Origin: Candidatus Chromulinivoraceae bacterium
Lineage (GTDB): Bacteria; Patescibacteriota; Saccharimonadia; Saccharimonadales; Saccharimonadaceae
Direction of reading: 5' to 3'
DNA: 47,979 nucleotides
Assembly (NCBI GenBank): GCA_035478595.1
Contig: DATIJL010000013.1
Location: 1-47,979, forward strand
This document shows positions 6,641 through 45,455 of the stretch, one piece after another. A model generated the notes under the pieces. The model searched no databases, was not told the DNA's origin, and worked only from the letters and a program-made list of their open reading frames with translations. The translations under genes were made by a program, and so were the position numbers. The stretch's first letter is position 1. Every line of letters starts with the position of its first letter.

Positions 6641-8074
6641 TTATACCGTAAGGGCTACTCGTTTATCTGTAGTAATTTCTCGTTGGTGGCTGCCAATCTC
6701 TATCGGATATTCGCCAGTAAAAACCGATACATCGAATGATTCAGGCGAACACTTGGTAGCCATGAGCATACCCTCAACCGAAAGATACCCAAGAGAGTCT
6801 GCCCCAATAGCCTCACAAACCTCTTCTATCGTCCGACCGTGTGCAATAAGTTCGGCCTGTGACGGCATATTTATGCCATAAAAGTTAGGAAACTTCACCG
6901 GCGGTGAACTAATCCGCACGTGGATCTCGGCCGCGCCGGCCTCGCGTAGCATCTCAATAAGTACGCCCAGTGTCATGCCACGTACAATAGAATCTTCAAT
7001 AAGCACCACTCGTTTGCCGTTCAAAACGGTAGGGTCGGGGACTAACTTTTCACAGACAGCCTGCCTTCGCTCCTCTTGGTCAGGCTTAATAAATGTACGT
7101 AGACGACTAGAACGTTTAATTCCCTCCACGTATTTTAAGCCACTTTCCCTTGCATAACCCTCTGCTGCCGGGATCGCTGATCTCGGAACAGGCACTACAA
7201 TAGTCGACGTAGTATCTCCCCCAACGGGCTGCTCACGCGCCAGTTGTACACCAAAGTCATACCTCACGTCTTCGACTATCCGTCCATATAAACGACTGTC
7301 ACCACGCGCAAAATACACTAACTCAAAAATGTCCAACTTTGGGTTGGACTGTACTATCCGTACAGTCTCTATGCCCGCGCTACTAAAAACGATCAGCTGG
7401 CCTGGCGAGATGTCCGTTTGGTCAGTAGCCCCAAGCGCATCTAAGGCACGAGTTTCCGAGGCAACTGCATAACCACCGCCAGGTAGCTTGCCATACGAAA
7501 GCGGACGAATGCCATACGCATCACGAAAAGCCACGAGTTTTTCCTCGTGCAGTGCCACGCATGAAAAGGCACCAACCAAAAGAGGGAAGACGCGTTCCAC
7601 TGCCTCCACTACTCCACTTCCCGCTTGCAGGTAATAACCTATAGCCGCATGCATCATGCCAGAATCATTCAACAACTCTATCGGCATATTTTTAGAAACC
7701 AAAAAATCAGCCAGTGATTTAATCACCGATAAATTACCATTATGAGCCAGTGCCCAACTCGTCTTAGCATCAGCAAACGGTTGAATATGCTCAAGGTCAG
7801 AGGCACTACCACTTGTGGCGTACCTGTTATGTCCAATCGCTGCCCTACCCTCAAGACTTTGGAGCGTAACCTCTGGATATGCTTCCACTACCAACCCTAG
7901 CTTTACATGGCGCAACAATTCGCCTTCATTATCCCACGTTACAATCCCCGTCCCATCCTGACCACGGTGTTGCAACTCTTCTAACATAGAAGCCGTGAGT
8001 CTGGCAGCAGCATTACTCCCCCATACTCCAGCTACGGCACATTTTTCGGATAATTCGGCACTCAGTCGGACCAT
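6641..8074 (-). CDS. purF: Amidophosphoribosyltransferase
   Basis: 477 aa. The N-terminal glutaminase domain has its nucleophile Cys12 (CAVAGVWG) after an 11-residue propeptide, then LQHRGQDGTGI and GHNRYAT. The C-terminal phosphoribosyltransferase domain carries the PRPP loop VLIEDSIVRGMT. PurF makes 5-phosphoribosylamine from PRPP and glutamine, the first step of purine synthesis. No other purine gene is in the window; if the genome is a typical reduced CPR one, the pathway may be absent and the enzyme could serve another role. AGGGGA precedes the ATG. Confidence 0.95.
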   Translation of the reverse strand: MVRLSAELSEKCAVAGVWGSNAAARLTASMLEELQHRGQDGTGIVTWDNEGELLRHVKLGLVVEAYPEVTLQSLEGRAAIGHNRYATSGSASDLEHIQPFADAKTSWALAHNGNLSVIKSLADFLVSKNMPIELLNDSGMMHAAIGYYLQAGSGVVEAVERVFPLLVGAFSCVALHEEKLVAFRDAYGIRPLSYGKLPGGGYAVASETRALDALGATDQTDISPGQLIVFSSAGIETVRIVQSNPKLDIFELVYFARGDSRLYGRIVEDVRYDFGVQLAREQPVGGDTTSTIVVPVPRSAIPAAEGYARESGLKYVEGIKRSSRLRTFIKPDQEERRQAVCEKLVPDPTVLNGKRVVLIEDSIVRGMTLGVLIEMLREAGAAEIHVRISSPPVKFPNFYGINMPSQAELIAHGRTIEEVCEAIGADSLGYLSVEGMLMATKCSPESFDVSVFTGEYPIEIGSHQREITTDKRVALTV

Positions 8075-41486: not shown

Positions 41487-42419
41487 TTAGTTGGTGCGTT
41501 TTTTACGGATAAAGAACATTACCAGGATAGCAGCAGTACTCGCGCTTAACGTGCTAACAACAAGTGGCAGCACGTTTTGGTTAGAACCCGTGTTGGGTAA
41601 CCCTGGCACACTGGTAGATCCGCTACCGCCGCCAGTGGTGGATGCACATGTAGGCACCGTAATCGTATCAGTATTAAGCGTCACATTTCCATTTCTCGCC
41701 AAAAGTCGCCCCTCAATAGTGGCGCCGTTATTAACTGAGATAGAGTTTAAAGCGAGGATCGTGCCCTTAAAATTAGCCGTTGTATTGATAGAAGCTGTAT
41801 TAACTCGCCAAAAAACATTACAAGCCTGAGCTCCATTTATGAGCGATACGGTACTACCCGATCCAACAGTTAACCCGGTACCATTAAAATTTGCTTCAAA
41901 AATAAATACAGATGATGGATCGTTTTGACCATCTAGCACAAGCGCACCGGCACCTGCGGTAATACCAAACGTTGTCGAGGCAGAGTCGTAAACGCCAGCC
42001 GTTTTAGTAGTTCCACCAAGCTCGGTTGGCACCGTCGTAACCGGCGTACGACCTGATGCGTCCGTATAAGCAGTGGTAAGGTCATTCTTCGCTCCCACTA
42101 ACAGTGGGCCATTCGTTATCCGACATGGGAGAGGACCGGCTGCATCAACCGAATATATCGTACCAGTCACTTGCGAACAGTTAAGTCCAATGCCTGCACC
42201 CGACGCAGGACTCAAGCCTACATTACCAAGAATCACCGATGCATTTCCAGCGTCAGTGATATTAGGAGTACCAGCCAATATAGCGAACGGCGTGGCGGTT
42301 CCTAGACTAACAGTGGACTGCGCCGCGCGTGCTGTTGATGCACTCGTTATAATGCCGGCCGCAACAACCGCTCCGCTTACAAATAAACTATTAAGTATTT
42401 TCCTACTAGTTTTTCCCAT
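41487..42419 (-). CDS. DUF3494 (ice-binding-like) LPxTG surface protein
   Basis: 310 aa. Signal peptide (1 to about 33, ending TARA), then a DUF3494 beta-helical domain of about 200 residues (LGTATPFAILAGTPNITDAG, VILGNVGLSP, VFWRVN, GTILALNSISVNNGATIEGRLLA). After a Gly/Ser linker come the sorting signal LPNTG (274-278), a hydrophobic segment and RKKRTN. DUF3494 domains bind ice in some organisms but are widespread as adhesins, so ice binding should not be assumed. AAAGGA precedes the ATG. Confidence 0.92.
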   Translation of the reverse strand: MGKTSRKILNSLFVSGAVVAAGIITSASTARAAQSTVSLGTATPFAILAGTPNITDAGNASVILGNVGLSPASGAGIGLNCSQVTGTIYSVDAAGPLPCRITNGPLLVGAKNDLTTAYTDASGRTPVTTVPTELGGTTKTAGVYDSASTTFGITAGAGALVLDGQNDPSSVFIFEANFNGTGLTVGSGSTVSLINGAQACNVFWRVNTASINTTANFKGTILALNSISVNNGATIEGRLLARNGNVTLNTDTITVPTCASTTGGGSGSTSVPGLPNTGSNQNVLPLVVSTLSASTAAILVMFFIRKKRTN

Positions 42420-42686
42420 GATCTTTTCCTTTGTTAGTTAATGCTTCTGAACGAATCGTGTGCATCAGTTCCAACCAGGAAAATGTATAGATGGTTGAGT
42501 GATATATGTCCCGGGAGACTAAGGCTAGGTATACATCTCTAGCCTACGTTCTCATCCTTTTGTACATAGTGTCTGTGGTAATACTATCAAGCTAATGGTT
42601 AATAGGCAAATCAAAATTGTAACTTCTACTACACTAGCATAGGAGCACCTGTGTTTAGCGAATAACTTACAAGAACTACATTCACC

Positions 42687-42715
42687 TTGCAACGCTTATG
42701 TTTTTCCTATTAAAT
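42687..42715 (+). promoter_or_regulatory. Promoter of the beta-helix gene
   Basis: TTGCAA (42687-42692), 17-nt spacer, TTAAAT (42710-42715). AAGGA follows at 42735-42739 before the GTG at 42746. The remainder of the 325-nt gap 42420-42745 shows no gene. Confidence 0.55.
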
Positions 42716-42745
42716 AGACCTACAGCAACCTAACAAGGATACGCC

Positions 42746-44419
42746 GTGGCACGATTGCCTGTTCCAGGATCAGATAACGATACATAGGGAAATGTCCTCA
42801 ACGATTTTTTGACGCAATCGCATAATGCCGATGGTACACTAAAATCCTCTGCTATTACCTCAAGTGGGGCTAATGCCACCACAACCTCGACCGGTCTTAT
42901 CCAGTTGGCTGGTGATCTTGCTGGAACTGCCACAAGTCCTACCGTTCCCGCTCTCGCCTCAAAAGCCAATGACAGTGCGGTCGTCCATAAAAGCGACTTT
43001 ACCGCAAAGGGTACCTTAATCGGCGGAACTGGCGCGAGTATTTACGCCAGCCTGTCCGTTGGTTCTGACACGCAGTTACTCACCGCCGATTCCACCCAAA
43101 CAACCGGACTCAAATGGGTTAATAAGCCTACTTCTGGTATTATATACGCAGTCGATTATGGTGCTGTATTTAATGGTTCTACAGATGACGCAGCAGCATT
43201 ACAGTCGGCGATTGCCGCGGCGGTAAGCACGGGCAAACCGCTCATGCTTTCACCTGGCACGGCCATTATTGGCACGTCTCTCTCTATCAGCGCGCCTATC
43301 ACGATAGTAGGAGCCGGAAGCGCCGCAACAATCTTAAAAGCTAAAAACAGCCTAAACGACTTTATTATCAAGTTTACCGGCGGCTCAGCTGGCGTTGGCA
43401 TAGTGAGTGCCGTCTTTATGGATTTTACACTTGACGGCAACTTAGCAAACCAAACAGCTGGTGGCGGCATTTTAGCCAGCGGTGCGGTACAGTGTGTTTT
43501 TGAGCGACTTCCTTTTACGAGCTGTTACAACTGGGGTCTTGAGCTTGGTCCTATTACTGGTGGCGCCTTTGGACACCATAACCGTGTTTTCAACTGTCTG
43601 TTCGACAATTCCGGTACTAGCACTGGGTATGGAGGAGGTACCTGGACAACCTCAAGCGACGAAAACTGGTTTATTCTCTGTGACTTTGAAAACCTCGGTG
43701 GCGCTTCCGCTCCTACCGGCACTTCACCCATCATGCTGTACGATCTTGCTGGTCTACAGTGTATTATTGGCTGTAATTTTGTAGGCGGTTCGAACAATTG
43801 TATTGCTGTGAGAATCCAAAACTGTAAAGAAACAAAAGTCATCAGCTCCACATTCGATAATACCGCTGGTGATAGTGTTTTTATGGTAGCAAACAGCTGT
43901 ACGGTTACTGGGAATGTATTTGCTGGACCAGGGACGGTTGGGTCAACCCCAGCGTCTGGCGTTAACCTCGAATTTAATACCCACTTTAATATTATCAGTG
44001 GTAACTCACTCGTCACTTCAGACATAACGGGTAAAACCCGTAGTCTCATCCGCGAGGAATCCACTGGTGGTGCTGGCGATAACCTACTAGAGGGTAATGG
44101 CATGAGTTGGGGTGCTTCTGGACCAACCGTCGCGCTACTTGAGACGGGTGGCACCAATACGATCGTTCGTAATAACATTGGCTGGAAAACCGAAAACACT
44201 GGTACTGCCACTGTACTGTCCGGCACCACGAGCATCGCAGTTTCGCACGGACTAGATACAACACCAGCGCTCGCTAATCTTAGCGTTACGCCTACCAATA
44301 GTCTGGGTAGTGCAACTCGCTTCTGGATAAGTGGCGTCACGAATACATCATTTACTATAAATGTTGATGTCAATCCAGGTGCGACCACGGCTACGTTCGC
44401 CTGGGCTGCACGAATGTAG
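42746..44419 (+). pseudogene. Beta-helix surface protein with an in-frame amber codon
   Basis: A 558-codon frame from GTG (AAGGA 6 nt upstream). It opens VARLPVPGSDNDT, meets TAG at 42785-42787 (codon 14), then continues in frame GNVLNDFLTQSHNADGTLK without further stops to 44419. From memory of related proteins, this N-terminal pattern usually has Trp here, so TGG to TAG is a one-base change. Residues about 135-440 form a right-handed parallel beta-helix of the pectate-lyase/tail-spike type (VDYGAVFNGSTDDAAALQSA, then turn-rich repeats). The C-terminal domain is beta-rich. Loss of function, readthrough or a base error are all possible; initiation at TTG 42809 seems unlikely. Confidence 0.8.
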
Positions 44420-44432
44420 AACTACTCAGTTT

Positions 44433-45455
44433 CTAACCTTCACTAAAGCCATTTGGATTCGATATTTGCCAGCGCCATGTGTCTGCGCACGCATCTTTGA
44501 GCGTTTTAGTCGCTCTCCACTCCAGCTGTGTATTCGCCTTTGAGACATCAGCATAGTACTCAGACAAGTCACCTGAGCGTCGTTTAATAATATCGTAAGG
44601 TATACTTTTTCCCGTAGCCTCTTCAAAAGCATGAATCACCTCAAAAACAGAGCTTCCCTTGCCAGTTCCTAAATTAAATACATCAAGACCGTGCATGCTT
44701 TCCATCCGCTTAAGCGCTGCGACATGCCCTTTCGCAAGATCAATCACATGGATATAATCACGAATACACGTCCCGTCAGGAGTGTCATAATCATTACCAA
44801 AAACGTGAAGCTTCTCTAGCTTGCCCACAGCAACCTGCGAAATATACGGCATGAGATTATTCGGCGTATTACGCGGATCTTCCCCAATCCTACCACTCTC
44901 GTGAGCCCCAATAGGGTTGAAGTAACGCAGTAAAATGACTCGCCATGAATCGTCTGACTTTGCGATGTCACGTAGGATCTGTTCCGTCATGTATTTTGTT
45001 TGGCCATATGGGTGAGGAATACCAATTCCTGTTTGAGTCGTCTCACTCCATGGCAATACAGGCGCATCTCCATAGACAGTAGCCGACGAGCTAAAAATAA
45101 GTTTCTTAATATTAGCTCGTTTCATTGCGCTGCAAAGCACTAACGTTGTGTCTAAATTGTTCTTATAGTAGGCCAACGGCACCAGTACTGACTCACCTAC
45201 CGATTTCAGGCCAGCAAAATGGATAACCGCCTCTATATCGTTCTCAGTAAAGATCTCTTTCAAGAGTACTTCATCCCGCACGTCGCCAGAGTACAGTTGA
45301 ACGCTCTTGCCGCTCAGTTCTTCTACTCGCTTGATAGCAGTTGGGTGGCTATTACAAAAATTATCAACAACCACTACTTCATATCCCTGCGCCAGTAACT
45401 CAATCGCTGTGTGAGTTCCAATATATCCAGCGCCGCCTGTCACCAAAATTTTCAT
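44433..45455 (-). CDS. galE: UDP-glucose 4-epimerase
   Basis: 340 aa starting at MKILVTGGAGYIGTHTA (an upstream in-frame start would lie in the neighbouring gene). Rossmann NAD site GGAGYIG, SSSATVYGD, catalytic YGQTK and the C-terminal FNLGTGKG, typical of extended SDR epimerases. It interconverts UDP-glucose and UDP-galactose for surface glycans. It starts 1 nt after the DUF2127 stop, so it is coupled to it. Confidence 0.96.
   Translation of the reverse strand: MKILVTGGAGYIGTHTAIELLAQGYEVVVVDNFCNSHPTAIKRVEELSGKSVQLYSGDVRDEVLLKEIFTENDIEAVIHFAGLKSVGESVLVPLAYYKNNLDTTLVLCSAMKRANIKKLIFSSSATVYGDAPVLPWSETTQTGIGIPHPYGQTKYMTEQILRDIAKSDDSWRVILLRYFNPIGAHESGRIGEDPRNTPNNLMPYISQVAVGKLEKLHVFGNDYDTPDGTCIRDYIHVIDLAKGHVAALKRMESMHGLDVFNLGTGKGSSVFEVIHAFEEATGKSIPYDIIKRRSGDLSEYYADVSKANTQLEWRATKTLKDACADTWRWQISNPNGFSEG

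Follow-up and report, generated by a model that had tools for sequence, protein, structure and literature searches.

The window, a stretch of 47,979 nucleotides, is contig C13 of an assembly of 1,135,732 bases in 19 contigs, which is an estimated 99.49% complete and, we infer, probably a metagenome bin; its small size, kin genomes of 0.5–1.7 Mb, and a phylum of >100 families point to Patescibacteria, perhaps Saccharibacteria. On the forward strand, a reading frame that opens with GTG at 42746 meets a TAG at codon 14 and then continues to a second TAG (Table 1). An earlier note on this DNA had claimed that the frame is long after a lone TAG, and we indeed counted 543 sense codons between the two stops. 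Because the chance of such a run is ∼2e-13, as calculated from base composition, and because the sequence matches PF12708 and PF19264, the frame 42746–44419 is not accidental. Where the earlier note had placed a Shine-Dalgarno sequence before the GTG, a Shine-Dalgarno-like AAGGA is present; the promoter that it had also described was not recovered, and a scan of 42420–44600 gave 0 sigma-70-like promoters compared with 2.8 expected in shuffles. Divergent from this gene, on the reverse strand (window:40842–42419), a sortase gene adjoins a gene for an ice-binding-like protein, which gave a weak LPXTG-anchor match.

Table 1. Parts of the amber gene, in window positions, and the loci of its phage relatives
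Feature	Position	Strand	Basis or remark
Shine-Dalgarno-like AAGGA	42735..42739	+	6 nt 5' of GTG; sequence and SD scoring
Codons 1–13, upstream half of N-terminal module	42746..42784	+	every conserved column of this stretch kept
In-frame TAG, codon 14, at the invariant Trp site of relatives	42785..42787	+	TGG in 77/77 other distinct copies
Remainder of N-terminal module, codons 15–33	42788..42844	+	module alignment
DUF5907 repeat match	42872..43075	+	PF19264, E 7.5e-7, residues 22–89 of frame from 42809
Beta-helix (pectate-lyase/tailspike-like) domain, limits approximate	43148..44182	+	PF12708, PHROG, Streptomyces phage homology
C-terminal segment, within region resembling Vibrio and Pseudomonas phage tail proteins	44183..44416	+	tblastn
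Final stop TAG	44417..44419	+	sequence
Phage relatives' loci, homologues of window:42746-44419	L079:6001-7398; L080:4758-6158; L173:1216-2658

The codons on both sides of the first TAG encode an N-terminal module with the consensus RLP.PG.D...WG..LN.(F/Y)L, in which Trp occupies position 14. The earlier note had named such a motif (ARLP-PG-D-GTWGNVLNDFL) in register across the TAG, and the module proved to be real, with 78 distinct copies in an alignment that took in copies scoring past a limit of 60 and left out lower-scoring, identical, and module-less loci. At the Trp site, the codon is TGG in 77 copies and TAG in one, that of the window. Of the 77, 7 lie elsewhere in the own genome, 68 are of same-family origin, and 2 belong to Streptomyces phages; these copies are kin rather than independent, and their loci were drawn from the higher-ranked matches. 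The homologous codon thus strongly supports the claim that the amber replaces an expected Trp. Further, because the module spans the site in all 77 other copies, the 13 codons before the TAG belong to the same gene.

A search of the own genome, in which the query carried an X in place of the TAG codon, revealed seven further module copies (L003–L008 and L015), bringing the module genes of this genome to at least eight with the window gene included. None of the seven contains a stop. The module lies at or near the start of these proteins, mostly as M-A-R-L-P, and no signal peptide was apparent in them when judged by eye. Of 151 genomes in the family, 52 (own genome counted) have a match to the window protein, as do 12 of 286 genomes in a scan of the phylum; among the matches listed, some of those from the family and 40 from the phylum, a stop lay inside the match only in that of the window itself.

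The remainder of the gene shows no decay besides the TAG at codon 14. In ≥90% of the 77 copies, 13 module columns are conserved, and the window keeps 12 of these, the stop being its sole departure. The beta-helix has 59 columns that do not vary among eight relatives, and 55 of them are kept in the window; when each of these relatives was left out in turn, 0–8 departures were observed, and the window's four are unremarkable. Consistent with the beta-helix proposed in the earlier note, PF12708 matched with 38.5 bits over a cut-off of 27 (E 1.5e-9, residues 114–187 of the frame from 42809), and PHROG tail-spike families were also matched, the best at 2.5e-8. The tblastn matches H12–H15 to phage tail proteins extend from query residues 411–462 to 553–557 of the read-through frame. 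No NCBIfam family was found for the protein, a sequence search of solved structures gave 0 matches, and a single-sequence AlphaFold2 model had a mean pLDDT of 35.4, too low to use. The product is plausibly a surface protein, and the window gene is filed here as a putatively broken member of the N-terminal module family and as that only.

We also compared the window protein with other collections. It matched 15 of 50,697 phage records, 11 of the 15 being Streptomyces phages, and the nearest full-length relatives found were LuckySocke gp41, GiJojo gp34, and an unannotated pSt2308 ORF, all of Streptomyces phages. Among the relatives found, the window protein is closer to the Streptomyces phage proteins (∼42% identity over 507 aligned positions) than to two proteins from same-family genomes (34–36%; G029 at L094 and G023 at L095). 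A tree of nine beta-helix domains likewise set these two apart from the window and Streptomyces sequences, although the tree is midpoint-rooted and has one fork open. The LuckySocke gene sits among tRNA genes and adjoins a peptidase gene, with no annotated tail cluster in the stretch shown; Streptomyces phage BRock also has the module, under a collagen-like protein. In IMG/VR, six pattern matches yielded 0 confirmed relatives, and 46 pattern matches in a named genome collection yielded one weak relative, which is 40 residues long and lies in a Bacteroidetes bin. Three records of a plasmid collection matched: two carry the same beta-helix protein of a Streptomyces plasmid, and the third gave a short Criblamydia match. 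A narrow literature search found no description of the module in such small-genome bacteria.

The genome uses the ordinary code. Among 218 sampled genes (those of ≥150 aa in the window and 12 stretches of the own genome), 88 end in TAG (40%), 104 in TAA, and 26 in TGA, and the in-frame extension to the next stop has a median of 8.0 codons past TAG compared with 11.5 past TAA. Read with the standard code, the window and the 12 sampled stretches have coding densities of 79–95%, and the shift on opening TAG is similar to that on opening TAA or TGA. The gene for RF1, prfA, is present (463.6 bits, cut-off 423.25). The genome has 43 RF00005 matches, of which 42 are above the cut-off, and ARAGORN called a tRNA at every match except the sub-threshold one; no CUA anticodon was found among the tRNAs so called, a set that may be incomplete. 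The tRNAs Ile-GAU, Ala-UGC, and Val-UAC would be expected, and because none of the three was found, some tRNA genes may be missing from the assembly. A change of genetic code was rejected on stop usage, the presence of RF1, and the tRNAs.

On own contig C8, a tRNA-like gene at 7621–7697 (L085:102–178) scored 56.6 bits with RF00005 and has an enlarged anticodon loop. ARAGORN called it 'ctta (Lys|Stop)', and, unlike in the other tRNAs listed, CCA is not encoded; among the eight best-matching loci checked in other genomes, none shared the 'ctta' call. We set it aside as a suppressor because its loop contains no CUA. The same contig carries a gene for a DabA-type inorganic carbon transporter beside one for a proton-antiporter subunit (L121:9254–13661), unexpected in so small a genome if C8 truly belongs to it.

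A-to-I editing of UAG would yield a codon that is decoded as Trp. TadA, the bacterial enzyme known for such editing, requires a UACG motif, according to PMC12255301, whereas the RNA at the stop reads UAGG. The TadA family PF14437 had no match in the own genome, although the same profile matched 12 of 14 control genomes, and the sole PF00383 match resembles a cytidine deaminase by eye. The tRNA-Arg anticodon edited by TadA is ACG; one Arg tRNA with GCG and none with ACG was found. Editing of the UAG was rejected on the motif mismatch and the absence of TadA. Around the TAG, the RNA showed no structure beyond that of shuffled sequences (z 0.78; 153 of 200 shuffles fold equally well). A search of 42600–43000 for direct and inverted repeats of ≥10 bp found none, and the only tandem repeat within 42400–44500 is a weak one at 44197–44218. 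The first in-frame start past the stop, TTG 42809, has no Shine-Dalgarno sequence and would exclude the module, and none of the 126 codons scanned past the TAG provided an in-frame start with a Shine-Dalgarno match of >3 nt.

Taken together, these results argue that the TAG is probably the product of a recent one-base nonsense mutation in the module's invariant Trp codon and an allele that the sequenced population truly carries. What is observed is the stop, the invariance of its site in relatives, a gene otherwise free of decay, use of the ordinary code, and the presence of RF1. We favor a nonsense allele because the site is Trp in 77 of 77 other copies, the own-genome copies are intact, the conserved columns are kept, TAG is an ordinary stop, RF1 is present, no CUA tRNA was called, and no start with a Shine-Dalgarno sequence follows. 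A single TGG to TAG change would have turned the invariant Trp codon of this tailspike-like beta-helix protein into an amber; RF1 would then release, in the ordinary way, a peptide of 13 residues from ribosomes that initiate at the GTG, and the full-length protein would be lost or made at trace level only. On this view, the living population would indeed carry the base, and the change would be too young for the rest of the gene to have been damaged. A point against this reading is that the lack of a second lesion is equally expected of an error or of a gene still in use, and we also count against it the finding reported in PMC7918605 that dN/dS stays <1 in many bacterial genes despite an in-frame stop.

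A young nonsense allele fits all the evidence, and an error of sequencing, assembly, or strain consensus, with an intact gene in the living population, fits nearly as well. The genus holds a single genome. Such an error would be in keeping with a lone substitution free of other decay, with 19 contigs probably binned from a metagenome, and with intact relatives being the rule, yet the assembly otherwise looks clean, as its coding density attests, and none of the other seven module copies shows a stop; we regard an error as unlikely. It is less probable still that the stop is tolerated, with low-level amber readthrough or downstream reinitiation (for example, at TTG 42809) giving some working product. 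In-frame stops are, as reported in PMC7918605, widespread in bacterial genes and often under purifying selection, and the 543 codons downstream are intact; the intact frame lends readthrough no special support, however, because a young mutation explains it equally. Against a tolerated stop are RF1, the lack of a suppressor tRNA among those called, the unstructured RNA, the TTG without a Shine-Dalgarno sequence, and the other family members, which, among the matches listed, have no stop inside the match. More doubtful still is that the amber serves as a population-conserved, low-yield control, in which rare readthrough would give a few cells or molecules an actinophage-shared, tailspike-like binding protein for use against actinobacterial partners.

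Surface proteins are often phase-variable, which would favor on-off switching of the gene by a change in its DNA that can revert at this site, but the lesion is a substitution rather than a change of repeat length, and the repeats such a switch would call for were not found; we consider this switch extremely improbable. The same low standing is given to restoration of the protein by reassignment of TAG or by mRNA editing of the UAG toward a Trp codon: either could supply the residue that all relatives have, but the use of TAG as a terminator and RF1 oppose the former, and the sequence context, the deaminase matches, and the Arg tRNAs oppose the latter. Among the causes suggested in the earlier note, the one-base change fits best, whereas phase variation is left unsupported by the repeats, and readthrough has no positive evidence from RF1, the tRNAs, or the RNA fold.

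The stop itself is of little weight, being a probable nonsense allele of a single gene in a small genome that has at least eight with the module. It does call for caution in annotation: a gene caller would take TTG 42809 as the start, as happened in the list of open reading frames, and the module would be missed. Of more interest is the wider family, as a many-copy module and a beta-helix are common to small-genome bacteria (probably Patescibacteria) and Streptomyces phages; this would open to testing the idea that phage-type proteins serve these bacteria in binding to actinobacterial hosts.

Overall, the gene has an in-frame stop where relatives have a sense codon, as in a nonsense pseudogene, and RF1 together with the lack of a CUA anticodon among the tRNAs called sets it apart from a recoded or suppressed amber gene. 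It resembles the genes with in-frame stops and nonsense pseudogenes described in PMC7918605 in having a single in-frame stop and being otherwise undamaged, but differs from those genes in that no orthologous stop occurs in the relatives seen. LuckySocke gp41, GiJojo gp34, and the pSt2308 ORF are alike in having the RLP...W..LN.FL module followed by a beta-helix; these Streptomyces phage proteins differ in being phage-encoded, in their intact Trp codon, and in being shorter, with no match to the last 55 residues of the window protein. The two same-family proteins also share module and beta-helix but have an intact Trp, are 434 aa long from a MARLP start, and align only as far as window residue 477.
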